IMG/VR virus record: IMGVR_UViG_3300023184_000034
Span: 1 to 64,000 of that record
Length of the DNA stretch: 64,000 nucleotides
Direction: 5' to 3' (one strand)
DNA from: a virus
Part shown: in pieces, positions 15,734 through 52,200 of the stretch
Layout of the letters: every line of letters starts with the position of its first letter
Position numbering within the stretch: the first letter of the stretch is position 1
Position numbers and translations under genes: made by a program
Notes under the pieces: generated by a model
Told to the model about the DNA's origin: nothing
The model's database searches: none
What the model saw: only the letters and a program-made list of their open reading frames with translations

Positions 15734-15794
15734 TTTGTTTTCTCCTTAGTGAAAAACGGCGTTCTAGGCCGTACGCGGTTGGATTTCCGCATAA

Positions 15795-15813
15795 AATCCA
15801 CCCTGTGTGGATT
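15795..15813 (-). promoter_or_regulatory. 5' leader hairpin downstream of late box
   Basis: Stem AATCCAC/GTGGATT with a 5-base loop, followed on the minus strand by TTATG. It lies 9 bases downstream of the CATAAATA box, so it would be at the 5' end of the late transcript, or act as terminator for the 202-residue gene. Confidence 0.4.
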
Positions 15814-15821
15814 GTACCATG

Positions 15822-15829
15822 TATTTATG
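15822..15829 (-). promoter_or_regulatory. T4-type late promoter box CATAAATA
   Basis: Minus strand CTACGCATAAATACATGG. The TAA within the box is the stop codon of the upstream gene (15825-15827). Drives the 341-residue gene. Confidence 0.55.
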
Positions 15830-31865: not shown

Positions 31866-32875
31866 AGGCTATTATAAATTGATAATAATACGTTTTTGTC
31901 AAATTGATCACTGTCGATGTTGATAATTTGACTACTGACAATCTGATCTACACTTTCAAATGCTTGTATATCAATGTTGGTGTTGATTTCTATGTCTTTC
32001 TTTTCTGCAATTAACGTTAATTCACGAATATCATAATCCGCAATGAACTTTTCTTTAATAAAACTTGCTTCTTCAAACGTGATATCTATGTCAAGTGTAA
32101 CACGCAGATGCTGTTTGGGTTTGATAATTGTTTCAGCATCGTCGATCAGTTGACTTAGTTTGACAGTTCTGAATGTGGGTTGGTTGGGCCATGTGTGATA
32201 TTCTGGAGTACCGTCCCACTCTAAAGTCATCATGCCACGATCATCATCCCATGCATCTGCATAGTTGTGTGGGAACGCATTGCCAATATAGATCATGTTG
32301 CGTTGCTGTTGACGCTTGTGAAAGTGTCCACTAAAGCCAAGCTCATAGTTTTTAAAACTATCCAACTGAATCTCACCGTGATCCGGCATCTGAATCATGG
32401 CATTCATAAAGAAGCTGGGCAACTCAAAGTGACCAAATATGTATTTGCCGCCTTTCTTGCCCACACTTCGCCATTCGTCTCCCACAAGCCACGGGCAAAG
32501 TGTAACATCGCCGATGGTAGTGGGTTCATGAACCACAGTGATGCCTGGTATGTATTTGCCAAACTCTACACTATGAATATCTCGCTTGTCTTTGTAATAC
32601 AAATCGTGGTTGCCAGGGAAGAAATAAAATTGATCAAACGCTGCACCTAGCTTTTCCAAGGCCCGCAAGCTGTAGTCCATGGTAGTGATGTTGAGACTAT
32701 TGCGATTGTGATGCCAGTCTCCCATAAAAATTCCAATGTCACAGCCTTCCTCTTTGGCCTTGGCAATGTACCAATCCACAAATTCTTCACAGTCTTGATT
32801 ATGAGTACTACTGTTGCTCTTGAGACCAAAATGGATATCGGTAAAACAAGCTACTTTTTTAAATAAATTACTCAC
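31862..32875 (-). CDS. gp47: Recombination endonuclease subunit gp47 (Mre11/SbcD-like nuclease)
   Basis: 337 residues (T4: 339). Metallophosphoesterase nuclease partner of gp46. The five metal-binding motifs are all visible: D-I-H at 13-15, G-D-W-H-H at 52-56, G-N-H-D at 88-91, G-H-F at 148-150 and G-H-F-H at 183-186. The C-terminal third should bind the base of the gp46 coiled coil. Its start overlaps the end of gp55 by 8 bases and its stop overlaps gp46, making a tightly packed three-gene unit. Confidence 0.97.
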   Translation of the reverse strand: MSNLFKKVACFTDIHFGLKSNSSTHNQDCEEFVDWYIAKAKEEGCDIGIFMGDWHHNRNSLNITTMDYSLRALEKLGAAFDQFYFFPGNHDLYYKDKRDIHSVEFGKYIPGITVVHEPTTIGDVTLCPWLVGDEWRSVGKKGGKYIFGHFELPSFFMNAMIQMPDHGEIQLDSFKNYELGFSGHFHKRQQQRNMIYIGNAFPHNYADAWDDDRGMMTLEWDGTPEYHTWPNQPTFRTVKLSQLIDDAETIIKPKQHLRVTLDIDITFEEASFIKEKFIADYDIRELTLIAEKKDIEINTNIDIQAFESVDQIVSSQIINIDSDQFDKNVLLSIYNSL

Positions 32876-33707
32876 TGGCAGTGTCCTCGTTGTGTCGTTT
32901 CAAAGCAGCTGCATGTTCGCCTGCTCCAGTCCTACTGTAACTGGGATTCATCCCATTCATTTCCAACACATCATCACGAATGTTTTGATTGCGTTTTTCA
33001 GTATTAATAACACGTACAAAACTGTTTGTCACAGCTGCGGTGAAATACGCAAACGGATTATCACTTTTTGATTCGTCAAACTGTAGGCCAATTTGTGTCA
33101 ACTGTAAAATAGCCATGCCCTTCATTTCATCATTGTAAGTGTATCCACGAACATTACCGCGTGTGGCATATCGTTCACACAACTTGATCATCATGCGGGC
33201 AAGTGTGTTACTGATTTGTCCAACATCTTTGTTAAAGTGACCTGTTGCCAAGTCACCTTCCCAGTGACTTTTGCCCACACAAACCAGTGTGTCTGGAGAT
33301 TCCGCATCAAACTTCCAATGCTGAAAAGGTGGAAAGTTTACCTTGTCTCTGTGATCCGCAATACTTTTAGGATTTTTTTTGCGTGTGTCGTTGAGGGGAA
33401 TATGATCAAAACTCATGATTCTAAAAACCACATCAGTTTTGGCAATTTTTTTGTAATCAACTTCACAGTCTGCTATCTTGATCTTTTCACCACCTGACTT
33501 TCTGCGTTCAAACTCTTGCTGACCCATGCGTTTTGCTCTAGCCCGTTTGGCCTCTGCAACGGTGCGTATGTTTATTTTGCTTGTGTCTGAAAGAATAAGA
33601 TCATATTGATGATACTCGGGTTTGGTAAAGCTGCAATATGATGTTTTACTTCGGTGTATTTCCAACAACATGTCTTTGTTGTTCAAATAATTAACTTTCA
33701 CTGTCAT
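32868..33707 (-). CDS. gp55: Late-transcription sigma factor gp55
   Basis: 279 residues (T4 gp55: 185). Directs host RNA polymerase to TATAAATA late promoters, in T4 together with gp33 and the gp45 clamp. Marine-type gp55 features: YLNNKDMLLEIHRSKTSYCS followed by PEYHQYDLILSD, and a C-terminal sigma-region-2-like block (MKGMAILQLTQIGLQFDES, NPFAYFTAAVTNSFVRVINT, EKRNQNIRDDVLE). The N-terminal extension compared with T4 contains a basic stretch (EAKRARAKRMGQQEFERRK). First gene of the gp55-gp47-gp46 operon; AAGGGA site and a near-consensus sigma-70 promoter stand just upstream, so it is expressed early by host polymerase. Confidence 0.93.
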   Translation of the reverse strand: MTVKVNYLNNKDMLLEIHRSKTSYCSFTKPEYHQYDLILSDTSKINIRTVAEAKRARAKRMGQQEFERRKSGGEKIKIADCEVDYKKIAKTDVVFRIMSFDHIPLNDTRKKNPKSIADHRDKVNFPPFQHWKFDAESPDTLVCVGKSHWEGDLATGHFNKDVGQISNTLARMMIKLCERYATRGNVRGYTYNDEMKGMAILQLTQIGLQFDESKSDNPFAYFTAAVTNSFVRVINTEKRNQNIRDDVLEMNGMNPSYSRTGAGEHAAALKRHNEDTASE

Positions 33708-33728
33708 TTTAAGAGTCCCTTATATAAC

Positions 33729-33757
33729 ATTATAAACTACGCACATAACAAAGTCAA
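33729..33757 (-). promoter_or_regulatory. Sigma-70 type early promoter for gp55-gp47-gp46
   Basis: Minus strand TTGACT (33752-33757), 17-base spacer, TATAAT (33729-33734): a near-perfect bacterial sigma-70 promoter with ideal spacing. Expected start near 33722, giving a leader of about 15 bases to the ATG at 33707. Its -35 box abuts the opposing late box for gp48. Confidence 0.85.
33732..33748 (+). repeat. 17-base direct repeat, copy 1 (ATAAACTACGCACATAA)
   Basis: Identical to 39766-39782. In both places it ends exactly 8 bases before a late box on the plus strand. Here it also overlaps the -10 and spacer of the opposing early promoter. Confidence 0.9.
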
Positions 33758-33764
33758 ATAAATA
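33757..33764 (+). promoter_or_regulatory. Late promoter box AATAAATA for gp48
   Basis: 7 of 8 matches to TATAAATA, 23 bases before the gp48 ATG, with AAAAGGA as ribosome site. Probably starts the hub transcript gp48-gp53-hub-gp5-gp25. Confidence 0.6.
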
Positions 33765-33787
33765 ATATACCAAAAGGATAAAATACC

Positions 33788-34780
33788 ATGGGTTTATTAC
33801 AAACAGTAGTATCTGCGCAAAACTTAATTGGCGCGGCCAGCAATGCAGTTACTGGAGTTAGCAAATTGGCCAGTGCATTAAGCACTGGATATAACAGTAA
33901 TCCTGGTGGCGTATTGAGTGCAATTCGATCAGCAAATTTACCAGAAGCCGGCGAAGTCATTGGCGACCTTATCAGTGCGGCTGATGCCGTATTCGGCGGC
34001 GATGTTGATGCCAAAGATTGGCGTGTGCGATTGAGTCTTGCTAATTGGACCAGCTTTAAAGGTAGTCCGGTGTTGCAACCTTTGAAAGATGCAGGCGGTC
34101 TCATATTTCCTTATACTCCAACTATATCAATGTCCAGCGCCGCAACCTATAACAAAATTGAAACAACACACACCAACTACACCTTTCAAGCATTTAAAAA
34201 TACTGAGCCCGGCGCCATAACAATTACTGCTCCGATGAATGTGGAAGATGCAAATCAAGGCTTGTACTGGATTGCAGCGGTACACTATTTACGAAGTTTA
34301 ACTAAAATGTTTGCAGGAACTGATCCTAAGGCTGGTAATCCTCCTCCTATTGTTTTTCTAAACGGCTACGGTAATTATGTTTTTAAAAATGTACCTGTGG
34401 TGGTAACAGGATTTTCAACATCGTTGGATGCCAGTTGTGATTACATAGGTGTTAATGTGGTTGGCAGTATGGCTGGCGAAATTGAGGGTATTGCTGAATC
34501 AGTTGGTGGTATTGCTGGCGCCATCGGCGCAGTCATTCCCAACGCCAGTTCCATCACTGGTGCGGTAAGTAACATAGCAGGAGCATTTGGCTCTATTGCT
34601 GGAATAGCTGGAAGTTTGGGACTAACTGGTAAAACCGGCGGCGACGTAACACATGTGCCAACCAAAAGCTCATTTACTATTAATCTACAACCAATTTACA
34701 GTAGAGAAAGTGCCAAGAACTTTAGTCTTGATAGATTTGTGGGTGGCGGCTACTTGAACAAATCATTTGGATACATTTAA
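33788..34780 (+). CDS. gp48: Baseplate tail-tube cap protein gp48
   Basis: 330 residues (T4: 364). Sits on the hub and starts tube polymerisation. Recognised by DWRVRLSLANW, SPVLQPLKDAGGLIFPYTPT, the block MNVEDANQGLYWIAAVHYLRS, GNPPPIVFLNGYG and THVPTKSSFTINLQPIYSRE, which match gp48 of marine T4-like phages. Between about residues 230 and 285 lies a Gly/Ile/Ala-rich hydrophobic insertion (ESVGGIAGAIGAVIP, SNIAGAFGSIAGIAGSLG), unusual for a tube-cap protein. Good AAGGA site; first gene of the plus-strand baseplate cluster, with gp53 2 bases behind. Confidence 0.88.
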   Translation: MGLLQTVVSAQNLIGAASNAVTGVSKLASALSTGYNSNPGGVLSAIRSANLPEAGEVIGDLISAADAVFGGDVDAKDWRVRLSLANWTSFKGSPVLQPLKDAGGLIFPYTPTISMSSAATYNKIETTHTNYTFQAFKNTEPGAITITAPMNVEDANQGLYWIAAVHYLRSLTKMFAGTDPKAGNPPPIVFLNGYGNYVFKNVPVVVTGFSTSLDASCDYIGVNVVGSMAGEIEGIAESVGGIAGAIGAVIPNASSITGAVSNIAGAFGSIAGIAGSLGLTGKTGGDVTHVPTKSSFTINLQPIYSRESAKNFSLDRFVGGGYLNKSFGYI

Positions 34781-34782
34781 TT

Positions 34783-35085
34783 ATGGCAACTACCTACACC
34801 AACACCAGTCCGTGGCATGCCACCACAGTTAAAAATAACTATCTCGATGTGTTGACTATTAGACCAGTCAGTGCAGCAGTGGATGATTTTTATTACACCA
34901 TAGAACCACAGTATGCATACCGCCCAGACTTGTTGGCATATGACTTGTATGGTACCGCAGAGTTGTGGTGGGTGTTTATTCAACGCAATCTTGACGTGAT
35001 ACAAGATCCAATTCTTGATTTTGTTCCTGGAACAAAAATTTATATTTGTAAAAACAGCGGCCTCAAAACTGCATTGGGATTATAA
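34783..35085 (+). CDS. gp53: Baseplate wedge subunit gp53
   Basis: 100 residues, shorter than T4 gp53 (196). The core YRPDLLAYDLYGTAELWWVF followed by QDPILDFVPGTKIYI is the conserved LysM-like part of gp53-type wedge proteins. In T4, gp53 joins wedges to the hub. It lies between gp48 and the hub gene with gaps of 2 and 1 bases; the upstream stop directly precedes its ATG (TTAATTATGG). Confidence 0.88.
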   Translation: MATTYTNTSPWHATTVKNNYLDVLTIRPVSAAVDDFYYTIEPQYAYRPDLLAYDLYGTAELWWVFIQRNLDVIQDPILDFVPGTKIYICKNSGLKTALGL

Positions 35086-35086
35086 C

Positions 35087-37531
35087 ATGTCATTTCCCAG
35101 CCTTGATAATTTATCAAGAACAATTGATTCAGCAACCACTGGCTTATCAAAAAGTGTGTCGGGTGTCAGCTCAATGGTCACTGGAGCAGCAAGTTCATTA
35201 TCAGCTGGCATCGGCGGAATCACCGGCATCGGCGGAGCAATATCTGGCATCAATGGTGTGTTATCAGGCATCGGCGGAGCAATAACTGGCATCGGCGGAG
35301 CTGTTAACGGATTGCTCAGTGCATTTGGTACTGCATTTACCCCGCTACCAGAACAGGCATTGCCTTTAAAAAATCCATTATTTGAATACGCCAGCTACGA
35401 TTACGTCTTGGGACTTGCTTGCTTAACTAATGATCAATTAAATTCCCCGGACACTGGCTACATGTCAGGCGCAATACCTTATCAAATTATTGCCAAGGAC
35501 GCAAATTCAGATCCAAAGAACCGAGTGAAAATAGCATATGGATCTTTTGATTATTTTTTAGACAAATTAGAAATTGACAGCACAATCGGCTTGCAAAAAG
35601 GAGCCAACACAAACATGCACAAGCTGACTTTTAATGTGACTGAGCCATACAGCATGGGAACTTTCATGATGAGTTTGCAACAAGCGGCTTGGAATGCTGG
35701 CCACGACAATTATTTACAAGCCCCGTACTTACTCACTATAGAGTTTCGAGGCGCAAAAGAAAACGGTGTGATGGCAAATATACCAAACACAGCTAGACGA
35801 ATACCTTTTAAATTCAAAGACGTGTCCATGACTGTGACAGAAGCTGGCGCTGTTTATCAATGTGAAGGATTCCCGTGGAGCAGTGCAGCTCTCAGCGCAC
35901 ATGTATCGGGCATTAAAAACGATGCCAGTGTAAAAGGCACCACTGTGCAAGAAGTATTACAAACTGGAGAGAAAAGTTTGCAAGTGGTCATGAACAAACG
36001 ATTGCAACAACTCAAGACCAACGGCGAAGTTAGTACTCCTGATCAAATTGTAATTTTATTTCCCACTGATGTGAGCTCCAAAGGAGCCGGCGGCAAAAGT
36101 GGAGATACTGAGGAGAAATCCAGTGCCACAACACAAACTGATGTGACGTCTGTTACTGATGTTGCAAAAAAATTAGGTCTAAGTAAAAGTACTATTCCTG
36201 CAAACACCACCTTGGTACAGGATTCTGCCAATGTGAATGCCATAGGCAAAGCCAAGATGGGATTTAGCGAGACCAGAAAAGGTGATGCTCCAGTTGGCAA
36301 AGACCAAAAAGTTGTTGTGAAGGGCAATGTGATACGCGGCAACAACACAATTGATCCGCAAACAAGTGATTTGAGATTTGCACAAGATACTGATATCACA
36401 GCAGCAATTGATACTGTGTTGTTAAACAGTGATTATGCAACTGCACAGTTGGAAGAACAAAATGTAGATGACAAAGGTCAACGCAAGTGGTGGCGCATTG
36501 ATACACAGGTGTACAACATAACCGATAATTCAAATCAGAAAAAGAGCGGAGATATACCTCGTGTGATTGTTTACCGTATAGTACCTTACGGAGTGCTAAC
36601 AGATAAAACTACAGCAGTCAACACTAAGACATCTGGTTTAAAAAATCTTGAAAAAGAAGTCATTAAAGAATACAATTATATCTACACTGGGAAAAATGTA
36701 GATGTGATAACGTTTAATATTGAAGTAAAAACTGGTTTTGCTGGCAGGATGGGAGCCACTAGCCTCAAGCAAACCATAGACAGTCAACGTCAAGCAGCAG
36801 CCAGCGGGGCAGAAAGCACAGACAAAAACAATGTAGATGTACTGGATGACGGCAAGAACCCAGAGAAAAAATTAGGTGTTCAACCTCAAAAAGTGAATTT
36901 CTCAGCCACATCATTTGGTAAAAATCAAGGCGGTGGCGGCATTGGCACAGAATCAACTGTTGCAGCACAACAGTTCCATGATGCAATTACCAGCTCTGCC
37001 AGCATGATGGCATTGGATATGAAAATTATTGGCGACCCATATTGGATTGCACAAAGCGGCATGGGAAATTACACAGCAATGCCATCACAATATCAAAATT
37101 TAAATACTGATGGCACTGTCAATTATCAAAACGGTCAAGTTCATATCACTGTGAATTTTAGAAGCCCAGTTGATATTAATCAAAGTACTGGATTATATGA
37201 CTTTGGAAAATACGCTGGAAATTCAGTACCATTGTTACAATGGAGTGGGTTGTATCAAGTTACTAAATGCATCAGTAATTTTGACGGCGGCAACTTTACA
37301 CAAAAATTAACAGGCCCTCGAGTGGACGGCCAAGAGCAATCTGGAGAAGGCAGTGCTAAGAACGCATCAAACGTGTCCAAAGGTGAAAACACTGTGCCAC
37401 AAGCCACGCCATCATATAGCCCTACGCAAACATTTGACGATGGCTCGTCAATACAAACAATGGATGACGGATCTACTCTGATAACTGATTCTGATGGTAA
37501 TGTCACATCCACACCAGCTCCTGAATCTTAA
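35087..37531 (+). CDS. Baseplate hub protein (gp27 position)
   Basis: 814 residues from MSFPSLDNLSRT. A frame extension to 35015 only overlaps gp53 and is not used. The N-terminus has Gly/Ile-rich repeats of GIGGAI-type (about residues 25-80). A conserved region follows: PLFEYASYDYVLGLACL, FDYFLDKLEIDSTIGL, KLTFNVTEPYSMGTFM, PYLLTIEFRGAKENG and FKDVSMTVTEAGAVYQCEG. I associate this with large hub proteins of marine T4-like phages, comparable in position to gp27, which caps the spike. The C-terminal half contains FRSPVDINQSTGLYDFGKYA and WSGLYQVTKCISNF and a polar Asp/Ser/Thr tail. Role inferred from similarity and from its place between gp53 and the gp5 spike. Confidence 0.8.
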   Translation: MSFPSLDNLSRTIDSATTGLSKSVSGVSSMVTGAASSLSAGIGGITGIGGAISGINGVLSGIGGAITGIGGAVNGLLSAFGTAFTPLPEQALPLKNPLFEYASYDYVLGLACLTNDQLNSPDTGYMSGAIPYQIIAKDANSDPKNRVKIAYGSFDYFLDKLEIDSTIGLQKGANTNMHKLTFNVTEPYSMGTFMMSLQQAAWNAGHDNYLQAPYLLTIEFRGAKENGVMANIPNTARRIPFKFKDVSMTVTEAGAVYQCEGFPWSSAALSAHVSGIKNDASVKGTTVQEVLQTGEKSLQVVMNKRLQQLKTNGEVSTPDQIVILFPTDVSSKGAGGKSGDTEEKSSATTQTDVTSVTDVAKKLGLSKSTIPANTTLVQDSANVNAIGKAKMGFSETRKGDAPVGKDQKVVVKGNVIRGNNTIDPQTSDLRFAQDTDITAAIDTVLLNSDYATAQLEEQNVDDKGQRKWWRIDTQVYNITDNSNQKKSGDIPRVIVYRIVPYGVLTDKTTAVNTKTSGLKNLEKEVIKEYNYIYTGKNVDVITFNIEVKTGFAGRMGATSLKQTIDSQRQAAASGAESTDKNNVDVLDDGKNPEKKLGVQPQKVNFSATSFGKNQGGGGIGTESTVAAQQFHDAITSSASMMALDMKIIGDPYWIAQSGMGNYTAMPSQYQNLNTDGTVNYQNGQVHITVNFRSPVDINQSTGLYDFGKYAGNSVPLLQWSGLYQVTKCISNFDGGNFTQKLTGPRVDGQEQSGEGSAKNASNVSKGENTVPQATPSYSPTQTFDDGSSIQTMDDGSTLITDSDGNVTSTPAPES

Positions 37532-37580
37532 AATAGAAGAGATACACGCAAGTAACATGGGCAATTGCAAAGGATAACAA

Positions 37581-39332
37581 ATGTCAAACACTGATAATGA
37601 ATTTGAAGAATATAGTACGCAACCCACCGACCCCAAGCCAGGCCCTTTCCTGGCCAGAGTTGTCAGCAACTTTGACCCAACTTACATGGGAATACTAGAA
37701 GTTGAAATCTTAAGATCAGTTGGCGGCACCAACAGCGAAACTCAACTTCATCAAGTAAAATACATGACTCCGTTTTACGGTGTTACCAGTGAAAAGTACG
37801 CTGGTAAAAATGATGATTATGCAGACACACAAAAATCGTATGGCATGTGGATGGTACCACCTGACCTCGGTGTAACTGTGGTTGTGATTTTTATTGACGG
37901 GGATCCAAAGCGAGGTTATTGGATGGGTTGTGTACCAGATGAAAATATGAATTTCATGATACCTGGAAATGCTGCAACTGAAAATGTAGTGGAAGATGTT
38001 GAATCAGATAATAATGGTGTGCTTGGCCGAGTTCCCACAGCCGAATACAATAAAAAATTAGAAGGTAATAACGAACCTGGCGATCCGGAAAAGAATTTAA
38101 AACCACAACACCCGTTTACAAAAGTTTTAGAACATCAGGGATTGTTGTTTGATGATGTTCGTGGAATCACAACCAGCAGTTCTAGAAGGGAAAGTCCCAG
38201 CAATGTGTTTGGTATCAGTACACCTGGTCCTTTGGATAAAAAATCCGGCGCAAAGAAATTTAAAACTGGCAAAGCTGAATGGTTGGCTGACACATATGTT
38301 AATAGATTGGGCGGCAGCTCCTTTGTCATGGACGACGGCGATGCCAACTGGCTGCGTAAAAAAACAGCATCAATGGGCCCACCTGATTATGCCAGCATTG
38401 ACGCTGAAGAAACAGACGGCGATGTTGAACTACCAGCTAATGAATTAATTAGATTGCGCACACGCACAGGCCATCAGATACTGATGCATAACACAGAAGA
38501 TCTAATTTATATAGGAAATTCTCGTGGCACAACGTGGATTGAACTAACCAGTGATGGTAAGATAGATATTTTTGCACAAGACAGTATCAGTGTTCGTACA
38601 CAAACTGATTTAAATTTTTATGCTGACCGAGATATCAACATGGAATGTGGCAGAAATTTTAACACAAAAGTCCGCGGTGAAAAACATACTCATGTGATTG
38701 AAGATCATATTTTAGTTGTTGACGGCAATCAAAAAATACAGATTAAAAAAGATGTAAACAAAACTTACGAAAAAAATTACAAACATCGTGTAAAACTACA
38801 AGTAGATAAATGGTATGACACATCGCATTTACACAAAATAGGCGGCGATTTTGACCTCAATATTGGTGGTCATAATTTTCAAACATCAAGGGGGTCAAAC
38901 GAAACTAAAGCTGGCGGTAACATAGTAGAAACTGCGCCGGCAATCCATATGAACGGCCCCGAAGCAACCGAAGCATCCCCAGCAAGCAAAGCAGCATTGC
39001 CCTCTCGTTTAAAATTACATAAGTTATCAGACGAATCGGGAGAGTTTGTAGAGGATGTTATACCTCCAAGTATCATGCGCCGTGTACCAACTGCTGAGCC
39101 TTATCCATATCATGAAAACTTAGACCCGTTAAAAGTGAAGTCAGAAGAAACTGACAGAGACCTAGACAATAGGTATGAAGATGATGACACGGAGGATGCA
39201 GGCCCAGGAGGTGATGGAAATGTTGGCTACGAACTTGACCCAGACGATCTTTCAGAAACAATGCTTGACCCTGCAGATGCGTGGAAAGTTTACAGTCTTA
39301 CACAAGACACCTTCTTAAAAGGAAGCAATTAA
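37581..39332 (+). CDS. gp5: Baseplate hub spike gp5 without visible lysozyme domain
   Basis: 583 residues. N-terminal OB-fold: GPFLARVVSNFDPTYMGILE, and GVTVVVIFIDGDPKRGYWMG. The segment that in T4 gp5 is lysozyme is replaced by a VgrG-like linker with RGITTSSSRRESPSNVFGIS and GGSSFVMDDGD. The triple-stranded beta-helix spike begins near 285 (ELIRLRTRTGHQILMH, IELTSDGKIDIFAQDSISVR, DINMECGRNFN). The C-terminus has RRVPTAEPYPYHENLDP, common in gp5 of marine relatives, and an acidic tail. Role: membrane-piercing spike under the hub. No lysozyme-type Glu...Asp/Thr triad is recognisable. AAAGGA upstream. Confidence 0.9.
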   Translation: MSNTDNEFEEYSTQPTDPKPGPFLARVVSNFDPTYMGILEVEILRSVGGTNSETQLHQVKYMTPFYGVTSEKYAGKNDDYADTQKSYGMWMVPPDLGVTVVVIFIDGDPKRGYWMGCVPDENMNFMIPGNAATENVVEDVESDNNGVLGRVPTAEYNKKLEGNNEPGDPEKNLKPQHPFTKVLEHQGLLFDDVRGITTSSSRRESPSNVFGISTPGPLDKKSGAKKFKTGKAEWLADTYVNRLGGSSFVMDDGDANWLRKKTASMGPPDYASIDAEETDGDVELPANELIRLRTRTGHQILMHNTEDLIYIGNSRGTTWIELTSDGKIDIFAQDSISVRTQTDLNFYADRDINMECGRNFNTKVRGEKHTHVIEDHILVVDGNQKIQIKKDVNKTYEKNYKHRVKLQVDKWYDTSHLHKIGGDFDLNIGGHNFQTSRGSNETKAGGNIVETAPAIHMNGPEATEASPASKAALPSRLKLHKLSDESGEFVEDVIPPSIMRRVPTAEPYPYHENLDPLKVKSEETDRDLDNRYEDDDTEDAGPGGDGNVGYELDPDDLSETMLDPADAWKVYSLTQDTFLKGSN

Positions 39333-39334
39333 TC

Positions 39335-39766
39335 ATGGCTAATTTATACACAAAAACAGTTGTTGCACAAAACAACAACATACCAGATTTTAAAGTACAA
39401 CGCTATCGCGGATTTAGTACAGTTAGTAGAAAAAGTAAGAATTTTGCATTGTATGATTTTGAATTAATCAAACAAGATATATTAAATCATTTTTACACAA
39501 GGCAAGGAGAGCGACTGATGCAACCTGCGTTTGGCACCATTATCTGGGATTTAATATTTGAACCGTTAACAGACGAAATACAGAATCTGATATTACAAAA
39601 TGTCAATCAGATTTTTAATAGCGATCCACGTGTACAAGCTGGCAATATTTTAATAACACCGTATGAAACTGGTTTGGAAATCAAATGCACTTTGCAATAT
39701 GTGTTGTATAACATACAGGAAAGCATGCAATTAAAATTTGACCAAGCCAACGGCCTAACGACTTAA
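39335..39766 (+). CDS. gp25: Baseplate wedge subunit gp25
   Basis: 143 residues from MANLYTKTVVAQNNN; the frame extends 18 codons further upstream into gp5 but AAAAGGAAG lies before the inner ATG. Matches the gpW/gp25 family (T4: 132 residues) with ERLMQPAFGTIIWDLIFEPL followed by TDEIQNLILQNVNQI and a basic N-terminal part. Role: with gp6 and gp53 forms the wedge core that triggers sheath contraction. Directly after the gp5 stop (2 bases); gp6 follows after a short promoter region. Confidence 0.93.
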   Translation: MANLYTKTVVAQNNNIPDFKVQRYRGFSTVSRKSKNFALYDFELIKQDILNHFYTRQGERLMQPAFGTIIWDLIFEPLTDEIQNLILQNVNQIFNSDPRVQAGNILITPYETGLEIKCTLQYVLYNIQESMQLKFDQANGLTT

Positions 39767-39782
39767 TAAACTACGCACATAA
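39766..39782 (+). repeat. 17-base direct repeat, copy 2 (ATAAACTACGCACATAA)
   Basis: Identical to 33732-33748, with the same 8-base distance to the following late box. It begins at the last base of the gp25 stop codon. Confidence 0.9.
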
Positions 39783-39790
39783 TTTTATTC

Positions 39791-39798
39791 GATAAATA
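39791..39798 (+). promoter_or_regulatory. Late promoter box GATAAATA for gp6
   Basis: 7 of 8 matches; 18 bases before the gp6 ATG with AGGA between. Probably drives gp6, the giant wedge protein and following genes. Confidence 0.65.
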
Positions 39799-39816: not shown

Positions 39817-42800
39817 ATGAGCTCAACGGATCGTCAAAATAACTTATTGATTGCTGAAAACTGGCAAAAAATATACCAATCGTTTAAGAACGCCAACTTC
39901 CAGAGCTACGATTTTAACAATCTTCGACGCACGATGATTGACTATATTCGCACTAATTTTCCTGAAGATTTTAACGATTACATTGAGTCTAGCGAATACC
40001 TTGCCCTTATTGACCTTATTGCGTATGTGGGCCAAAGCATAGCTTTCCGAGTTGACTTGAATGCCCGTGAAAACTTTTTAGAGCTTGCAGAACGCCGAGA
40101 CAGCGTGTTACGTTTGGCACGTATGATCAACTACAATGCTAGCAGAACAGTTGCTGCTAGAGGGTTGTTAAAATTCAACTCAGTACAAACAACAGAGAAT
40201 GTGATTGATTCCAATGGTAGAAATTTGTCAGGACAATTTGTCAGCTGGAATGATCCAAGCAACAACAACTGGTATGACCAATTTATTAAAGTAATCAACG
40301 CTGCATTACCATCAACCCAGCAGTTTGGAAATCCCATTGACTCGGCCACTATTGGCAATATTCCAACAGCTCAATACAGATTTAATGCAGTCAACCGAGA
40401 TGTTCCTGCTTACTATTTCAGCAAAACAATTGCCGGCCGCAACATGAATTTTGAAATTACCAGTACAACATTCAAGGGAAAAAGTTACATATACGAAGAG
40501 CCTCCAAGAGTTGGAAATAAGCCAGCATGTGTTTACCAGGATGACGGCTTTGGCGCTGGCAGTCCCAGTACTGGATTCTTTTTTAATTTTACACAGGGTA
40601 CTTTGAACCAAGGATCTTTCACAGTAACACAGCCAACCAGCAATCAAAGTATAGATATCAACTCACAAAACATTAATGATTCTGATGTTTGGTTATACAG
40701 TTTAGATCAAAGCACCGGCTTAGAAAAATTGTTATGGACACAGGTACCAGCAACCACTGGCAATAATATAATTTATAACAGTTTAAATTCTAATATTAAA
40801 GATATTTACAATGTCATCACCAGAGCAGGCGATGCAATCAGTTTAGCATTCAGCGACGGCACATTTGGTAATTTACCATTGGGTGGATTTAGAGTTTATT
40901 ACAGAGTAAGCAACGGTTTATCTTATACTATCTCTCCATCTGATGTTGTCAATGTGGTTGTTAATATTCCTTATAGAAGTTCTAATAATCAATTAGAAAC
41001 ATTGAGTATCAGTTTAAATCTTGCCACCAGTGTGGCCAATGCAACCACAGCTGAGACAAATGCCAGTGTTAAGATCAATGCTCCTCAAAATTATTATACA
41101 CAAAATCGTATGATAACAGGCGAGGATTATAATATCAGTCCACTGTCCACCAACTTGCAAGTTGCAAAAGTAAAATCATTAAATAGAACCAGTAGCGGCA
41201 TTAGCCGTTATTTTGATTTGCTAGATCCTACTGGAAAATACAGTACCACTAATGTATTTGCAGATGACGGTATACTTTATAAAGACGAATACACTGCTGC
41301 TGTAAATTTTTCTTATATAGTTGAGACTGATATCGAAGGAGTGATATACAATACCCTGTATGATATTTTAGATTCTAATAGTTTAAAGAACTTTTATTAT
41401 GCAAATTTTTTAGATTACTTGAATATTAGTCTTAGTATTTCTTGGTATACTGTAACACTGGATAGTAACTCAGTTAGTGGTTACATTGGTAGTATTTTAG
41501 ATAGTACTCCTTACAAAGTTGGATCATTTACTGCTACTAATTTAAAGTACTTGACTGCGGGATCTTTGGTAAAATTTGTGGCACCCACAGGCAAATACTT
41601 TGACACAAATAATAACAATGCACTTGTGACTGGAACAGCCACATTGCCAGGTTCTGCCAGTTATATTTGGGCGCAAGTTATAAGTGTTGTGGACGACGGC
41701 ACTGGAAATAACACTGGCAAAGTCACAATAAATAATTCCACGTCTGGTCCCATTGTAATGAACAAAGTAATTCCCACAGATGCATTGGCTGTACAAATTA
41801 TTCCTAAATTTGCAATAACATTGACACCGTCAATTATTACCACAATGATTGATTTAATTTCTGCCAATGAAAATTTTGGCCTTCGTTACGATGCAACAAT
41901 TCAAACTTGGCAAATTGTATTTTCTAACAATTTAAATTTAACAAACACATTTAATTTGGCAAATCAAGGAAATCAATCTAATTTACAACTAGATTCCAGC
42001 TGGTTAATTTTGTTCACCACAAATACTGAAATTTATACTATCACTTCTAGAAATCTTCGTTACATATTTGAAAGCGATCAACAATCTGCTTTCTATTTTG
42101 ATACCACAGCAAAAATTTATGATTCAGTCACATCAAAGACCATAACGGACAAAATCAATGTACTCAGTATAAATCCAAAACCCGACGACTCTGTTTCATT
42201 CACACAGGACTTGGGTTGGAAAATAGTATCTGAGTACATTGGCCAAGACGGCTACGTGGATTCTAAAAAAGTAGTTGTGGCATTTCTGGATGCGGAGGGA
42301 ACTGATACACCAAATAATCCTCAGATGTTTTTAGACATTGTAAATCCATCAGTTGAACCTCTTAAAAAGTATATTGTGCAACATCGATATCTGATTTCAG
42401 AAGGACAGGAAGATTACAAATATATTAAAAATGATGCAGATAAAGGTCCGGTAAGGATTAAGCCAACACAAAGCAGTATTGGTAACTTGAGAGACTATCC
42501 TGATGGCACTTATTTTTATGTTGTGAACACTGACACTGTATTTCAGTTGAATCTTTCAGGCGCCACACAATTGACTCCAACATTGGATTATAAAGTGTAT
42601 ATTGGAAGAACTGATTTGAAATTTCAATATATACACAGTGCAGACTACAACTCAAGGATAGATCCTGGCACAAGTAATATAATTGACATTTACGTGTTAA
42701 CATCTAACTATGACACTGCATTCAGACAATGGGTATCTGCTGGTGGCACACAACCGTTGCCACCCAGTAGCGATGAATTAAATACATTACTGTCTCCGAA

Positions 42801-43290
42801 TTTAAATCTAATTAAGTCAATTTCTGATGATATCATATATCACCCAGTCAGTTATACCTTGCTTTTTGGCATCCAAGCAACTCCTGCTTTACAAGCAACA
42901 TTTAATGTCATGATTAATCCCAACTCTGCAGTATCAAACGCAGATGTTCAAGCACGAATTTTAGCTGCAATCAACACTTTCTTTACCTTGGACAACTGGG
43001 ATTTTGGCGACACATTTTACTTTACTGAGCTGAGTACATATGTGATGAATCAACTAGCCCCGGACATTATAAATTTTGCCATAGTTCCAAAACAGCCAGG
43101 GTTGTACTTTGGTAATTTATTTGAAATACAATGCCAAGGCGACAAAATATTTTTAAGTTGTGCCACTACCAACGATATTGTTATTGTCACGAGCTTTACT
43201 AGTACCAATTTAAAAACAATAACTTCTTCGTCAAACAGTGTTACCTCTAACCAAGTAGTAACTAGTTCATCATCCGGAGCATCTTACTAA
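39817..43290 (+). CDS. gp6: Baseplate wedge subunit gp6
   Basis: 1157 residues, much longer than T4 gp6 (660). The N-terminus is unmistakable: YDFNNLRRTMIDYIRTNFPE, SSEYLALIDLIAYVGQSIAF, RVDLNARENFLELAERRDSV and INYNASRTVAARG. The central region adds beta-rich domains (residues about 150-330 and 560-760). The C-terminal part has the NTFFTLDNWDFGDTFYFTEL motif of the gp6/gpJ family. Role: gp6 dimers tie wedges into the inner baseplate ring. The stop overlaps the ATG of the giant gene (TAATG), so the two are translationally coupled. Confidence 0.94.
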   Translation: MSSTDRQNNLLIAENWQKIYQSFKNANFQSYDFNNLRRTMIDYIRTNFPEDFNDYIESSEYLALIDLIAYVGQSIAFRVDLNARENFLELAERRDSVLRLARMINYNASRTVAARGLLKFNSVQTTENVIDSNGRNLSGQFVSWNDPSNNNWYDQFIKVINAALPSTQQFGNPIDSATIGNIPTAQYRFNAVNRDVPAYYFSKTIAGRNMNFEITSTTFKGKSYIYEEPPRVGNKPACVYQDDGFGAGSPSTGFFFNFTQGTLNQGSFTVTQPTSNQSIDINSQNINDSDVWLYSLDQSTGLEKLLWTQVPATTGNNIIYNSLNSNIKDIYNVITRAGDAISLAFSDGTFGNLPLGGFRVYYRVSNGLSYTISPSDVVNVVVNIPYRSSNNQLETLSISLNLATSVANATTAETNASVKINAPQNYYTQNRMITGEDYNISPLSTNLQVAKVKSLNRTSSGISRYFDLLDPTGKYSTTNVFADDGILYKDEYTAAVNFSYIVETDIEGVIYNTLYDILDSNSLKNFYYANFLDYLNISLSISWYTVTLDSNSVSGYIGSILDSTPYKVGSFTATNLKYLTAGSLVKFVAPTGKYFDTNNNNALVTGTATLPGSASYIWAQVISVVDDGTGNNTGKVTINNSTSGPIVMNKVIPTDALAVQIIPKFAITLTPSIITTMIDLISANENFGLRYDATIQTWQIVFSNNLNLTNTFNLANQGNQSNLQLDSSWLILFTTNTEIYTITSRNLRYIFESDQQSAFYFDTTAKIYDSVTSKTITDKINVLSINPKPDDSVSFTQDLGWKIVSEYIGQDGYVDSKKVVVAFLDAEGTDTPNNPQMFLDIVNPSVEPLKKYIVQHRYLISEGQEDYKYIKNDADKGPVRIKPTQSSIGNLRDYPDGTYFYVVNTDTVFQLNLSGATQLTPTLDYKVYIGRTDLKFQYIHSADYNSRIDPGTSNIIDIYVLTSNYDTAFRQWVSAGGTQPLPPSSDELNTLLSPNLNLIKSISDDIIYHPVSYTLLFGIQATPALQATFNVMINPNSAVSNADVQARILAAINTFFTLDNWDFGDTFYFTELSTYVMNQLAPDIINFAIVPKQPGLYFGNLFEIQCQGDKIFLSCATTNDIVIVTSFTSTNLKTITSSSNSVTSNQVVTSSSSGASY

Positions 43291-46200
43291 TGGCCACTTC
43301 CAATGTAAACGGCAACAAAGGACTTAGTGCAAACTTACTACCTAAGTTTTATCAAACTCCGTCAAACAAGAAATTTTTACAAAGCACAATAGATCAGTTG
43401 TTTCAACCAGGATCGTTGACAAAAGTCAGTGGTTATGTTGGTAGAGAAAATGCCAAGGCAAGTGTGGGAACAGATTTATATATAGAAGCATCTGACAAAT
43501 TACGACAAGATTATCAATTAGAGCCTGGTGTAACAATTAGAGACACAGTGGGCAATGTTACTTTTTTTAAAGATTACATTGATTATATAAATCAAATCAA
43601 TGTGTTTGGCGGCAACACTGATAATCATACTAGACTTAATAAACAAGAATTTTACAGTTGGAACCCGCACATTGACTGGGACAAGTTTGTTAATTTTCAA
43701 AATTATTACTGGTTGCCATACGGCCCTGATACCATAACAATTTATGGCAAAGAGCGAGTTATTAACAGCACATACACTGTGGAAGTTCAGCGTCAAGGAA
43801 CCAACAACCAATTTGTGTTTACTCCCGACGGACTAACACCTAATCCAGTGTTGAGATTGTATAGAGGAAAAACATACACCTTTAATATCAATAGTCCCAA
43901 CAATCCTTTTAGTTTTAAAACAGCAAGATCTGCAGGCCCAACTGACCGCTATAATTATCAAGGATCGGTTAGTGCCAGTGGTGTCACATCTGGAACAATC
44001 ACATTTACCGTTACTAAACAAACACCTAGTATTTTGTACTACCAAAGTGAAAATGACATTGATCTTGGTGGCGCAATACAAATTTCTGAACTGCTTGAAA
44101 ACACAAGCATTGATGTTGAAGCAGAAATTTTAGGAAAAAAAACAGCCACACTGGACAATGGCATCACATTAAGCAATGGTATGAAATTGTCGTTTGGCGG
44201 CACAGTGTACCCTGAAAGCTATGCCAACGGACAATTCTATGTGGAAGGTGTTGGCACTGCAATTAAATTAATATCAGCGGATATTTTAGAAATTGTCAGC
44301 CCGTACTCTACAAATAATACATTGCCGTTTGATAGCATGCCGTGGGACGTTGAACCGTTTGATGATGCAACTGGATATGCCGGCACAATTGATTATATAA
44401 CTATTAACAGAAGTAGTCGAGATCACAACCCTTGGAGCAGATACAATCGTTGGTTCCATAAAGATGTAATTTCTGCTTCCGCCATATTTAATAATAATAC
44501 TATTAGCTTAGATCAAACAACTCGAGCTATTAGACCAATTATTGAATTCTTTCCAGATATCAAATTACACAACTTGGGAATAACAGCAATACCTGATATT
44601 GACTTAATAGATACATTTACTCAAGATGCGTTTTCGACCATTGAAGGCACTATTGGTTACAATGTTGACAATTTTGATTTATTGCCGGGCATGCTTGTTA
44701 TATTCACTGCAGACCCGGACCCGCTAGTACAAAATAAAATTTACAAAGTTGAATATGTAGACGTTAGAAATTTAAGTAGTGGCAGCAATCAAATACATCT
44801 AGTGGAAATTGCCACACCCACAGTTGGACAAGTTGTGTTAGTACGACAAGGATCAAAGTATAAAAGCAAAATGTTTTGGTTTAACGGCACCACATGGATA
44901 GAAGGACAAACTAAAACAGCCACTAACCAAGCTCCAATGTTTGACATGTTTGACAATGATGGTGTTAGTTTTTCAAATTTGTCCGTGTACACTGGTTCAA
45001 CTTTTGCGGGAACTAAAATATTTTCTTACAAATTAGGAACTACCGGAACAGTTGATCCAAAATTAGGATTTATCTTATCTTATCAAAATGTTAATAACAT
45101 AGGCGATATTGTTTTTAATTTTAATCTAGCAACAGACACATTTGAATATAAAAAAACTTCAATTGTTGAAACACAAAATATCAATATTGGATATTTGTCT
45201 ACACGAGATTACGGCGGCAATTTAACATATTCTAACGGTTGGGAAACTTCTGCTGTAACCAATGTACAAGCTGCTGTGAGAATTTACAAAAATTCAGGTC
45301 GCACCAATAATTTTCCAATTGACATATTTGATGACCCTGGAAATCTATCTGATTTAGTTGTGAAAATTTATGTTAACGGTACACGGTTGGATAGTAAACT
45401 CTGGTCAATTAATAGCACAGCTGCTTATAAAATAGTTAACCTAATAACACCCATCGGCTTAGACGATGTATTGACCATAAGAGCATTTTCTGCTCAGGTT
45501 ATTAATCAAAACGGTTATTACGAAGTTCCTTTGAATTTTCAAAATAATCCGTTAAACGATGTAATGACAAATTTCACCTTGGGTGAAGTGACAGATCACG
45601 TTAACAGTATAATAGATAATCTCCCTACACCTAATACAGATATTCAAAATTTAGGCAATATTACACCATATGGTACAAAATTTGTACAACATAGCGGCCC
45701 ATTGAGTCTTGGCGTTTATCATATTTGTTCAGAATCAAACAATGTGATCAAGGCAGTAGAACAAGCAAGAACAGATTACAACAGCTTCAAACAAAATTTT
45801 ATCAATTCGGCAAGTTCATTAGGAGTTGACGGAGACCCAGTTACATTATTTGAAATGGTGTTGAACAAGTTAAACAACAACAAACCTAGAGTGGCCCCTT
45901 ATTACTTGAGTGACATGGTACCGTACGGTGCAGCTATTTCAACCAGTATCAAAGTAGTTGACTATAGGATTAAAAATTATCCGTTAACCACTGTGTTTTC
46001 TTTAAATAACCTTTCTAACAAGGCCGTGGGAATCTATCTCAACGGAGTACAATTAGTTCACGGCCAAGATTATAACTTCGATGTGTCGGGTTTTGTATCC
46101 ATTGATCCGTCTGTTAATCTTGCCAACGGCAACACAATCAAAACAGTTGAATACGAAAATACTGACGGCAGTTTTGTCCCAGCAACACCAACTAAACTAG

Positions 46201-49200
46201 GCATGTGGCCTGCCTTTGCGCCTAAAAAATATCTAGATACAACATTGGTTAACCCTCAACTGGTTATTCAAGGTCACGACGGCAGCATTGTTTTGGCATA
46301 TAACGATTATAGAGATGATTTAATATTAGAACTTGAAAAACGAATTTTTAACAACATCAAGGTAAAATACAATACTGATATTTTTGATATTTCAAAAATA
46401 ATCCCCAGCTACAATAGAAAATCAGATTACTCAAGAACTGAATTTAATAGTGTACTGGCTCCTAATTTTTATAAATGGACTGGCTTGGTAGGAAAAGATT
46501 TAACCACTCCGCTAAACTACGACAGAACAAATGGTTTTACTTACAACTATGCATTGTCTGGAGCACCTGACAAAACTCCTATACCTGCATATTGGAGGGG
46601 AATTTATAGATATATCTTGGATACTGACAGGCCACACTTGTGTCCTTGGGAAATGCTGGGATTTGCAATAGAACCCAAGTGGTGGACAACTGTGTATGGC
46701 CCTGCTCCATACTCAAGCGACAATCTACCCATGTGGCAAGATATTGCTGACGGCGCAGTCAAAGAACCAAATACACCGCCGGTGTATTTTCCAGAGCGTG
46801 CTAAACCATTTTTAATGTCGCATATACCTGTTGACGAATTTGGTAATTTAATTAGCCCATTACAATCAGGCATTGCATCTGGTCTATCACAACCAAGTAT
46901 CAATAACAATTTTGTATTTGGGGATGGGAGCCCAGTAGAATCTGCATGGACTAGAAGTAGTTATTATCCGTTTAGTGTAGTAATAGCCAGCTTGTTGTTA
47001 ACACCAGCTAATACATTTGGTATGTTGTTGGACAGATCGCGTGTTGTTAGAAACATTGCTGGCCAACTGATATATTCAGATACTGGCTTACGAATAAAAC
47101 CGTCAGACGTATTATTACCTAGCACTTACTCCAGTTCTACTCGAGTACAAACTGCAGGCTTAGTTAACTATATTGTTGATTTGATATTTAATTATATTTT
47201 TAGTAATAATGTTGCTGGTTACAATTCTTATTCAACAGACTTGTCAAAGTTAACACCTCTATTAAGTTATCGAGTAGGAGCATACACTAACAAGCCGCAA
47301 TTTAATTTGTTGTTAGAGTCAAAAACTCCGTCCAGTACTGGTAACGTATTTGTACCACCAGATGATTACTCTGTATTTTTAAATAAATCTACTCCTGTTA
47401 AAAAGATAACTTACAGTGGTGTGGTCATTACAAAAGTATCTACCGGATTTGAAATAAAAGGTTATAGTTTATCGCAGCCTTATTTTAAATATTACCAATT
47501 TCTTGGCACTGGCAGCAGAATCACAGTTGGCGGTATTTCTGAAGATTATTCGGCATGGACTCCTGGTGAAAATTATTTGGTTGGCTCCGTTGTGCAGTAT
47601 AATGGTTCTTATTATCGTTCACTACAAAATTCTGTAACCGATGAAACATTTAATACTTTCAATTTTGCAAAACTGCCTGGCCTTCCTATGAACGGCGGCT
47701 CTTCTGCAAATATTAGAAACAAATGGGATAATAATCAAATTTTAGTAGCGCCGTACGGAACATTATTTCCAGACATCCAATCCGTAGTTGATTTTCTGTT
47801 GGGGTACGGCGAATATTTAAAAGATCAGGGTTTCTTGTTCAATGACTATAACACAAATTATAGCACAGTATCTAACTGGTTGTCCAGTGCTAACGAATTT
47901 TTATTCTGGACTACACAAAATTGGAGTACTGGAGTAGACAAGTGGCAAGACTGGCAAGCAAATGAATCATACACGTATGGATCAATTGTAAAGTATGACG
48001 GCGATTTCTACAGTGCTTTATATAATATTCCATTATCAACTGCGTTTGACGCCAGCAAATGGAATATGTTGCCGGGATTAAGCAACATTGGTAGTAGTGT
48101 TATCAGTTTAAGTCCTTCTGCTAACGGCATTAATTTTACTACGACCTTAGCGGTAGTTGACAGCATTGCTAGTCAATTTAACCCTTACGAAATTTTTAAA
48201 GTGGATGGATCGCCGTTTGATCTAACAAGTTTAGACAGTTATCATCAAGATGGCAAAGTTTCTTATATACCAAAATCTACCGAAGGTATATATGGTGCCA
48301 GTTTTTATCTAGTGCAGCACGAGCATGTTGTAGCAGTTAACAACACAACTATTTTTAATGATGTTATATACAGCCCTACTAGCGGTTATCGCAGAGACCG
48401 ACTGAAAGTCAGTGGGTATATTACCACAGGTTGGACAGCTGGTTTAGATATTCCAGGATTTATATTTGACGCTGCTAAGATAGACGAGTGGCAATCTTGG
48501 AAAGATTACAATGTCGGTGACATTGCCAAGTACGGACAATTTTATTTCCAAGCAGAACCCATGACGGGAAATCTAATTCCAGGATCTGAAAAATTCAATT
48601 ACACGCAGTGGACTAAATTACTCAACAAGCCCACAAATCAAATCTTGCCCAACTGGACAACTATTGCATCTCAGTTTACGGATTTTTACAGCGCCGATAT
48701 TGACAGTTTCAATACTGCACAGCAAACAATGGCCCATCACTTGATTGGATATCAAAAACGCCAATATTTAAATAATATTATTCAAGATCCGGTAAGTGAG
48801 TTCAAATTTTACCAAGGCATGATTCGAGAAAAAGGTACACAAAATGTTTTAAATCAGTTATTTGGTGTATTAAATTCTGAAAATAGAGAAAGTCTTACAT
48901 TCTATGAAGAATGGGCTGTTCGAACTGGTCGATACGGCGCAACAAATGCGTTTGAAGAAATTGAATTTATACTAGATGAAAGCAAGTATTTAAATAATCC
49001 TCAAGCCACGGTGCTGGTAAAAAATTTAGATAGTAAGTTAAATCCATTTGTTGTACAACAAACTATTAATGATGTTTATGTAAAACCAATGGGCTATACA
49101 GCAACACCGTTTCCTGTATTCGAACCAACAAAATCGAATCAATTTTTAAGAAGCGCAGGCTATGTAAATTCTGCAGATGTATATGTTGCAGTAAGTTCAA

Positions 49201-52200
49201 CTAATCAACTGTTGGGTCAACCTGCAACCAGTATCACAGTGGGCATATCTTACATAATTAAATCGGTGAATGCTACTACAGATTTTACTCAGATCGGTGC
49301 AACAGAAAATGCTGTTGGATTATCATTTGTTGCCACAGGCGTTGGTTCCGGAACTGCAACAGTTGTGTTGGATCCTAATAAATTAAATGAAGGTTCGTAT
49401 ATTTGGTGTGCGTTTGATCCTGCAGGATGGAATGTTTATCGATACACCGATATTCAAATAAGTGCAACTGGTGCAACATATGCTAATAATTTATTAACAA
49501 TTACAACTGATATTACTCCTAATATACAAGTTGGATCATTCATTGGGCTTTCACAGATTCCCACACTGAGTGGTTTTTATCAAGTAACAAGTGTGATTTT
49601 GAATAAAATCACAGTATCTGCAACAATAGCTGCCTTCCCCAATTTGTCTGCTCTTCAAATTAAAGAAATAATTATATATGCTTTGATTCCACAGCGCACA
49701 GCCTCCATAGATAACATAGATTCTATTCTACCTACAAACTTACAAAAGAATGATTTGGTATGGACAGACAACAGTGGCAACGGCTCTTGGGCCACATGGA
49801 TATACAATCCTGTATTTCAGCAACAGCTTTTATCTAATACAACACCTAGTCCAAATTCACAATTTGGATATGTTACATCAATAAACCAGCAGGGTAACTT
49901 GCTGGCTGTTGGCGCATTAAGCGGCAATGTTGTAATTTATGATAAGGTAGGATTACAGACTCCTTGGATTCGTCGACAAGAAATTCAGTATCCGTTTAGT
50001 GCTCAAGCTGATTTTAATGCACTTACGTTGGTTGCATCTACCATCGCCATAAGTCCCGACGGAACATGGGTAGCCACCGGGTCTCCTAAAGTCAGTCATG
50101 TGTCTACTAAACTGAAACCAAATTGGAGTTTGTCTAATACATATCAAGTTGGTGATATTGTATCGGTGGGAATAGACAAGGCATACCAAGCAACATTGGA
50201 TGTGCCCACAAATATACCTGTAACTAACACATACTATTGGAAAAATATACCTTACATCCCAGTTGACAATTTGGGAACAAATTCTTCATTAATGCAACAA
50301 GGCATGATATCGTTATACAAAAAAGATGCTAATAATCTTTACAATTTAGTTGACAGTATTATTAGCCCGTCCCCTGCTGACGGCCAGTTGTTTGGCGAAA
50401 CACTGGAATTTGGAAATTCAGTATTGTACATTGGCGCTACTGGCACCGGCTGCACTGTTTTTAAATTATCATACACTTCAACACTTAACGTATCCACAGC
50501 ATACGATAATGTTGGCAGTACAGGAACAACTCTAAAAGTAACATCAGCAATTGGAATTTCAGCAGGTATGTATGTACAAAGCTCTGCATTTTTAAATAAC
50601 CAGACGGTTGATTCTGTATTATCTAGAATAGTGTTTCCAGTATCTGTATCTGGAAATGTTACAAATTCATTGGGAATTTTGATAAAAGTTGAAAATATCA
50701 CAGCCACCATGACTGTCACAGGTACGGGTGTAGTGTCGGGCGCTGAGATATATTCTAAAGGAATCACCAGTGATGGAAATGTGTATATTATTGTGTCAGC
50801 ATCACAAAACTTATTGACAAGTATTACGCAAATTCAGTTAGACAATGATCCAACATTGATATTTACAATATCAACTGTGTCTAGCGCAAATACTTTAATA
50901 TTATCCTCAACTCCTACAAGTACACCGATCGGCACATTAAATTTTGTAACAACAGCGTGGGCTTATAAAGATTTTGTAACCACTCCCAATGGAGTTAATT
51001 ATTTTGGCGCTGGTTTATCATTGAGCGATGATAACAGCACATTGGCCGTTTCTTCCAGCGAGTCGGTCTACCTTTTTGCCACATCTTCCAACACACTGAT
51101 TCGCACATACACAGGGTTCACTAATGCAAACAAACTTGCTGTTAGCATTTCTGGAAGCGGAAAATATCTAGCAGTGGGACAGGGATCAACAGGCACAGTC
51201 AATATATATCAAACAGCTGGTTTAACCCCAACTGTTCCAGTACAGACTTTGATAAATCATTTTAATCAAGAAGATCGTGCATTCTTTGGAAGTAAACTGG
51301 CATTTATGACTGATGATACACTGGTGGTGTATAGTCAATCCGGCTCAACGTCAATTGCCACAACCATTGATGCATATTTAGAACCATTATTATCGTATAC
51401 ATATCTAGACGAAAACGGTGTAACACAGGTATCCACATATGTAAATGATCCCGAGTCAGCAGAAAACATTAATCAAACTACATTTGATAATCAGTCTACA
51501 AGATTTGTAACTCCTTTACCAAATGCAGGTCGTGTTGATATATACGATAGGTATGCTACCAAGTGGGTGTACAGTGAAAGTCTTGATAATATTGATACAC
51601 CAGCCAGTGGATACGGCGTGGGATTTGCGGTGGGTAGTAATTCTGTAGTTGTGGGTTTGCCAAGACTAGACAATGGGTCGTTAATGGACACTGGCAAAGC
51701 ATATGTATACAACAAGTTTCCTAATAATTTTACATGGAAAATTTATCGTTCACAAATTCCAGTTGTTAATATTGGTAAAATTAAAAAAGCATTCTTGTAT
51801 GACAAGGTTACCAGTAAGCTGTTGGTACAGTTAGATGTGATTGATCCTAACCAAGGTAAAATTCCAGGACCTGCCGATGCAGAAATCAAGTACAAATCGT
51901 TCTATGATCCTGCAACTTATTTCTACAGTAGTATGGTTTCACCAGGACCAACAGTGAACATTGACACTGGATCTTTCTGGGCATCTCCGCAAGTCGGCCA
52001 ACTATGGTGGGATTTAAGAACTGCCAAATTTATTGATCCGTACTTTGAAGATATTTCTTATAGAAACAATGTTTGGAATAAATTAGCACAAGGCGCCAGC
52101 ATAGATATTTACGAGTGGATATCTTCTAGTTTATTACCAGCAGCGTGGGACACACTGGCCGACACACCTGCTGGACTTGCAAGTGGTATCAGTGGATTGA

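Follow-up and report, generated by a model that had tools for sequence, protein, structure and literature searches.

How a T4-type phage shuts off an early regulator and sets the level of its late sigma factor gp55 is little known outside T4, and one short intergenic region of an uncultured phage raises this question directly. The window analysed here (64,000 nucleotides of the virus record IMGVR_UViG_3300023184_000034) carries a gp55-type gene on the minus strand and, divergent from it, a virion gene that heads a run of baseplate genes. An earlier note on this DNA proposed that an early promoter of gp55 and a late box of the type read by gp55 abut between the two genes, so that the late polymerase would occlude the promoter of its own sigma gene while starting the baseplate operon. 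The early promoter, the late box and their conserved abutment have stood up to a closer analysis, while an inverted repeat lying in the early spacer had been missed. The features concerned are collected in Table 1.

Table 1. Features of the gp55/gp48 intergenic region and of the transcription units around it, in window coordinates.
Feature	Position	Strand	Basis or remark
gp46-like nuclease subunit, same run as gp55	30084..31865	(-)	phrog_77, E 5.9e-101
gp47-like nuclease subunit, overlapping gp55 end, same run	31862..32875	(-)	phrog_100, E 1.9e-65
gp55-type late sigma factor, 279 aa	32868-33707	(-)	PHROG "sigma factor for late transcription", E 4.6e-72
Early promoter, -10 box TATAAT, predicted start near 33722	33729..33734	(-)	sequence
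Upstream element ATAAACTACGCACATAAC, imperfect 18-bp inverted repeat	33732..33749	(+)	-25..-8 from late octamer
Early promoter, -35 box TTGACT	33752..33757	(-)	sequence; TTGACA in some relatives
Late box AATAAATA, predicted late start near 33770	33757-33764	(+)	sequence, relatives
Ribosome-binding region AAAAGGAT of gp48-like gene	33772..33779	(+)	sequence; conserved alignment columns
gp48-like virion protein, heads late baseplate run	33788..34780	(+)	phrog_12050, E 2.7e-41
Remainder of run: gp53-like, virion protein, gp5-like, gp25-like	34783..39766	(+)	profile matches
Second element copy, ATAAACTACGCACATAAT	39766-39783	(+)	25 bp before gp6-like late box 39791
Late box GATAAATA of gp6-like baseplate gene (39817-43290)	39791..39798	(+)	25 bp past element start

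The assignment of the minus-strand gene to gp55-type sigma factors is borne out not only by the PHROG profile but also by T4 gp55 itself, which is the sole PDB sequence match of the product (7d7c_F, E 3e-6) and its best fold match. The part matching T4 gp55 (185 aa) is the sigma-2 region, at about residues 148-239; the N-terminus forms an extra domain of about 140-145 aa, which is confidently modelled and bears invariant residues across the group, and the first ~145 residues have no PDB match. A clamp loader is encoded by this phage, and neither gp33 nor a sliding clamp has been identified in it; Pfam searches of its 161-kb genome for the clamp (PF02916), MotA and AsiA, run without a positive control, gave no match. 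The divergent neighbour is indeed a virion gene at the head of the baseplate run, but its name gp48 is positional only, its structure model (pLDDT 53) being too poor for a fold search. On the gp55-gp47-gp46 strand, directly after the stop of ORF 29349-29786, lies a Polynucleobacter-1 RNA (RF01718, 106.7 bits; 29204-29348, minus strand), a member of an orphan environmental RNA family found here within a phage.

The minus-strand TTGACT-N17-TATAAT facing gp55 had been described correctly in every base. It is wholly intergenic, lies 22 nt from the gp55 ATG, and combines the hexamers (5/6 at -35, 6/6 at -10), a spacer within 16-18 bp and the position before an early gene that define a sigma70 promoter. 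A lone 11/12 match of this kind is not rare in 64 kb; three are seen in the window, with about 2.2 expected. The early sigma70-type class of this phage family is real. In a 165-kb relative (G006), all 27 matches to TTGACW-N16-18-TATAAT fall on the same strand, against 0 and 1 for the reversed-pattern control; in a 372-kb relative (G007), there are 36 matches versus 5 for the control, and the 161-kb genome of the phage itself has several early-type sites directly before genes. Among 142 distinct relatives scored by script, the TTGAC core is kept in 139 (two true departures read TTGATT), TATAAT in 132, and the spacer of 17 in all. The letter changes observed at -35 (TTGACT/A/G) still leave a -35 box.

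On the opposite strand, the late box begins exactly at the last base of the -35 box, as had been noted, and the two have this base, 33757, in common. In T4 numbering, the late octamer extends from -13 to -6 (PMC1524935), which moves the predicted start upstream from the position near 33775 first suggested. The T4-type octamer TATAAATA is represented by an accepted variant, AATAAATA in the window and AATAAATA or ACTAAATA in the relatives, with ACTAAATA replacing AATAAATA in 59/142. This A/C alternation at the second octamer base agrees with known late-box variants, as A(-13) is recorded for nine T4 late promoters (PMC2988020), and the Aeh1 late box is CTAAATA (PMC1524935). The octamer starts 31 nt before the ATG of the virion gene, the short distance typical of a late promoter; in the 161-kb genome, virion genes, including those of the baseplate and tail, are repeatedly preceded by NATAAATA or NCTAAATA boxes that start about 26-33 nt before an ATG.

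The conservation of the overlap in related genomes, which the earlier note had named as a check, has been confirmed on loci gathered from IMG/VR by gp55 or by the virion gene. The two genes are divergent in 145/145 loci having both. There are 88 distinct intergenic sequences, one of them with a misplaced start codon, and all of the 87 that can be scored show an offset of 0 and a spacer of 17. When more distant loci are included, the script finds the abutment in 140/142 distinct relatives (gp55 64-100% identical), the one true exception (L249) being shifted by 1 bp. Both promoters occur together in a random 80-mer of the same composition with a frequency of 3e-4, and abut in 0/60,000. Because of this conservation, the observation is judged to be real and not due to chance; the abutment is conserved in more than 100 phages of a large uncultured T4-related family. 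At the DNA level, the region has no match among named phages.

It would be too strong, given the count of indels, to take the fixed spacing as proof of selection for occlusion. On the gp55 tree, each leader has changed in length about 71 times over about 22 nt, from which ~3 changes are expected at one neutral junction; the single real change seen is not significantly fewer. Moreover, with two interleaved promoters, a fixed offset follows from the constraints on both of them without any selection for occlusion. Conservation is sharp over 33729-33764 and the flanks are variable, and the unit that is firmly conserved is the entire 36-bp block rather than one junction.

Much of this block is accounted for by the inverted repeat. 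Its consensus, ATAAACTACGCAC[A/T]TAAT, starts 25 bp before the late box. It shares 3 bp with the early -10 and occupies most of the early spacer, which in the alignment of relatives is nearly as conserved as the -35 and -10 boxes. The sequence ATAAACTACGCACATAA is found just once more in the window, at 39766, in front of the late box of the gp6-like gene, and no early promoter is present at this second copy (39766-39783). Across 54 distinct sequences the gp6 copy is conserved, and its upstream edge, at -25, is sharp. A matrix built from the gp6 promoters of other phages, without the window sequence, places the gp55/gp48 site in second position across the 161-kb genome, at 22.5 bits; the best score in 30 random genomes is 19.9 bits. 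An attribution of the conserved spacer to the early promoter class has been rejected, as it is missing from other early promoters of the genome and present at the gp6 late promoter. Since the element precedes the gp6 late promoter in the absence of an early one, the early promoter of gp55 is nested in what would be a bipartite late promoter or an operator. The columns belonging to the early promoter only, ATT (-28..-26) and GTCA (-4..-1), reach a conservation of 98% or more at gp48 and not at gp6, whereas the repeat and the late box are conserved at both, which argues for two superposed promoters and not one. The conservation of an 18-bp element upstream of the octamer in two promoter families also means that these are a variant and not plain T4 late promoters.

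Only some late boxes in the genome, a minority, carry the element. The late boxes at 62953 and 26701 (minus strand) have looser copies 24 bp upstream, the core TRYGYA directly adjoins the baseplate-hub late box in 9/9 cases, and an exact-pattern search of twelve other phage records finds the composite mainly at the gp55/gp48 and gp6 loci. In both promoter families, symmetry peaks at a single centre, -17/-16 from the box, with 5.86 and 5.17 complementary pairs of 9 versus 2.7 (sd about 0.16) after shuffling of letters. Perfect or near-perfect forms (8-9 of 9 pairs) exist in some relatives, and the copy in the window is weakly symmetric, with 4/9 pairs by hand count. The symmetry suits a dimeric DNA-binding protein better than a sigma domain as the candidate reader.

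Taken together, these features suggest the following sequence of events. Early in infection, host polymerase would start at TTGACT-N17-TATAAT and transcribe gp55 together with the gp47/gp46 nuclease. Once accumulated, gp55 would direct the polymerase to open the late box of the opposite strand and to start the baseplate operon from a late promoter composed of the 18-bp inverted repeat (about -38 to -21 from the late start) and the TAAATA box. The early -35 and -10 hexamers are placed partly between these two late elements and partly on them, so that one DNA copy could not be shared by early and late initiation. Template by template, synthesis would pass from gp55 to the baseplate proteins, and a brake would act on gp55 once late transcription is under way. 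We lean slightly towards this reading, a composite control region of ~36 bp with early/late exclusion and feedback on gp55; that both promoters are real is held with greater confidence.

If both promoters are functional, mutual exclusion of the two polymerases on one template is very likely from geometry. The T4 late open complex is melted from -12 to +2 (PMC7892883), gp33 lies near -39/-35, and the clamp lengthens the footprint by 13 bp upstream (PMC2988020). A T4-like late complex on the window sequence would span 33729-33757 and thereby all of the early promoter, and the late box would lie under a sigma70 complex; hence, the two would exclude each other. It is plausible that gp55 limits its own synthesis in this way. 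A net decrease in gp55 would depend on occupancy across many genome copies and on the activity of host sigma70 late in infection: with many copies, occlusion would be only partial, and host early transcription may be shut off late by other causes. As gp55, gp47 and gp46 run on the early promoter, its shut-off would hit more than the sigma gene. The repeat would provide a second route, perhaps a stronger one, to the same end.

Phage phi29 employs the host sigma at both its early and late promoters. Its protein p4 represses A2b/A2c and activates A3 simultaneously (PMC3100819), and by this precedent, a dimeric phage protein bound to the 18-bp repeat could block the early promoter of gp55 and help or time the late one. 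At gp6, such a regulator would act on the late promoter alone, and gp55-polymerase would not be the main repressor at gp55/gp48. A single centre of symmetry in both promoter families and the fixed 25-bp register of repeat to box at two unrelated loci speak for such an operator, as does the fact that upstream sequence is not conserved at T4 late promoters, which calls for a new reader (PMC2988020, PMC7892883). Against it, the binding protein is a candidate only, the window's own repeat is poorly symmetric, and in one relative (L158), the repeat is lost at gp48, yet TTGACA-N17-TATAAT still abuts ACTAAATA. We consider an operator switch a serious competing reading, though less likely than not; it is compatible with exclusion and feedback. 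The phi29 region resembles the present one in that opposite early and late blocks (A2b/A2c-A3, under p4/p6) are controlled within one short stretch, with regulator sites on the early promoters of phi29 (PMC3100819) and a palindromic candidate site on the early promoter here. It belongs to a different phage type, and its regulator is known, whereas the one proposed here is hypothetical.

The element might instead be read as a -35-like site by the long gp55 with its N-terminal domain, or by a gp33-like partner. Its location and the extra length of gp55 (279 aa versus 185 in T4) would suit such a role, but PA5oct- and RaK2-like gp55 proteins possess the N-terminal region too, and the late boxes inspected in these phages had no such element upstream. 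The minority of late boxes that carry it and a symmetry better suited to a dimer also argue against this reading, which we regard as quite improbable. Mere compaction, with two independent promoters squeezed into an 80-bp gap without regulatory consequence, is unlikely, if less so. The small intergenic region favours it, a single indel-free junction is weak evidence of anything more, and PA5oct-like phages manage without abutment; nevertheless, in RaK2-like phages the promoters stay close in longer gaps, and bases in common force exclusion whether selected or not. A broader proposal is that an undescribed phage regulator, or else the additional domain of the long gp55, binds the repeat and defines a bipartite class of T4-type late promoters for tail genes, and that at gp55/gp48 alone it turns gp55 off and the baseplate operon on; this is tentative and rather doubtful. 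Exclusion with feedback on gp55 thus continues to be the reading that we prefer.

The divergent gp55/virion pair is also found in cultured jumbo phages, including PA5oct, MIJ3, RaK2, 121Q, CBB, GAP32, BF, Munch and others; in the cyanophages Syn33 and P-SSM2, gp55 lies beside gp47/gp46 but not opposite a baseplate gene. In RaK2-like phages (gp55 37-41% identical), whose -35 is of another type (TGAAACG; PMC5259590), the gaps are 115-134 bp and the -10, mostly of the extended type, is 26-28 bp from the late box versus 23 in the window. The earlier note would have been contradicted by relatives that keep the genes and separate the promoters. Such relatives exist, as in PA5oct-like phages the -35 and late boxes are 22-71 bp apart, so exact abutment is not required; it is kept in nearly all relatives whose gp55 is at least 64% identical. 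Exact abutment is therefore a clade trait, close pairing older or recurrent, and separation tolerated.

In the passages of the CBB paper considered, a host-type promoter is predicted before gp55 (Porf_244, -35 TGAAACG) and an ATAAATA late motif before structural genes, with no description of a promoter overlap in CBB/GAP32 (PMC5259590). CBB and GAP32 thus share with the window the gene pair, the predicted host-type gp55 promoter and the late motif, and differ in the -35 type and in lacking a repeat of this kind. With the T4 late system, the window has in common the sigma-2 homology of gp55, the NATAAATA/CTAAATA octamer and an AT-rich start region; the conserved upstream element and the extra gp55 domain set it apart. 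In RB49, S-PM2 and Syn9, early and late promoters also occur at one place and have been proposed to substitute for the MotA middle mode (PMC2984593), but there both lie upstream of the same gene, whereas here they are divergent and serve different operons, one of them that of the late sigma itself.

T4-type late boxes, the overlap of early and late promoters (PMC2984593) and operator-bearing early/late switches (PMC3100819) are already known. What is new is the nested layout and the repeat: a late-sigma promoter nested in a two-element late promoter with a conserved upstream repeat is undescribed in the literature searched, which mostly did not extend to subscription papers. Within the same literature, the repeat would be the first case of sequence conservation upstream of the box in late promoters of the gp55 type, and it would offer a handle for a new regulator in a widespread freshwater and marine phage group. 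By tying the gp55 promoter to a gp55-type promoter, the 36-bp module would allow a small and direct test of early-to-late feedback.

Several minor observations concern leaders and late boxes. In RaK2-like phages (L172-L179), the gp55 leader has a small covarying hairpin with the loop A[A/C]GGAT[C/T] and compensatory changes in 3/7 pairs, a possible translational operator, which is absent from the short gp55 leaders of the window's clade. In one relative (L265), the gp55 strand has a perfect late box, TATAAATA, which directly follows the early -10 and closely precedes the start of gp55, and gp55 might be subject to late autoactivation in that phage. Hairpin-like inverted repeats (e.g., gaagaacgtagttcttc) directly precede late boxes in L091, L105, L141, L151, L153 and others, and the genes behind these boxes form one family, whose products start with MK[IV].[ED][IV]I. 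In the window, a single open frame of 5139 aa (43290-58709, plus strand) lies between the gp6-like and tail-fibre-connector-like genes. Finally, a freshwater-2 RNA (RF02980, 75.7 bits; 15731-15812, minus strand) is situated between the late box CATAAATA at 15829 (minus strand) and ORF 14708-15733 and probably forms the leader of a late gene close to that of the major head protein.
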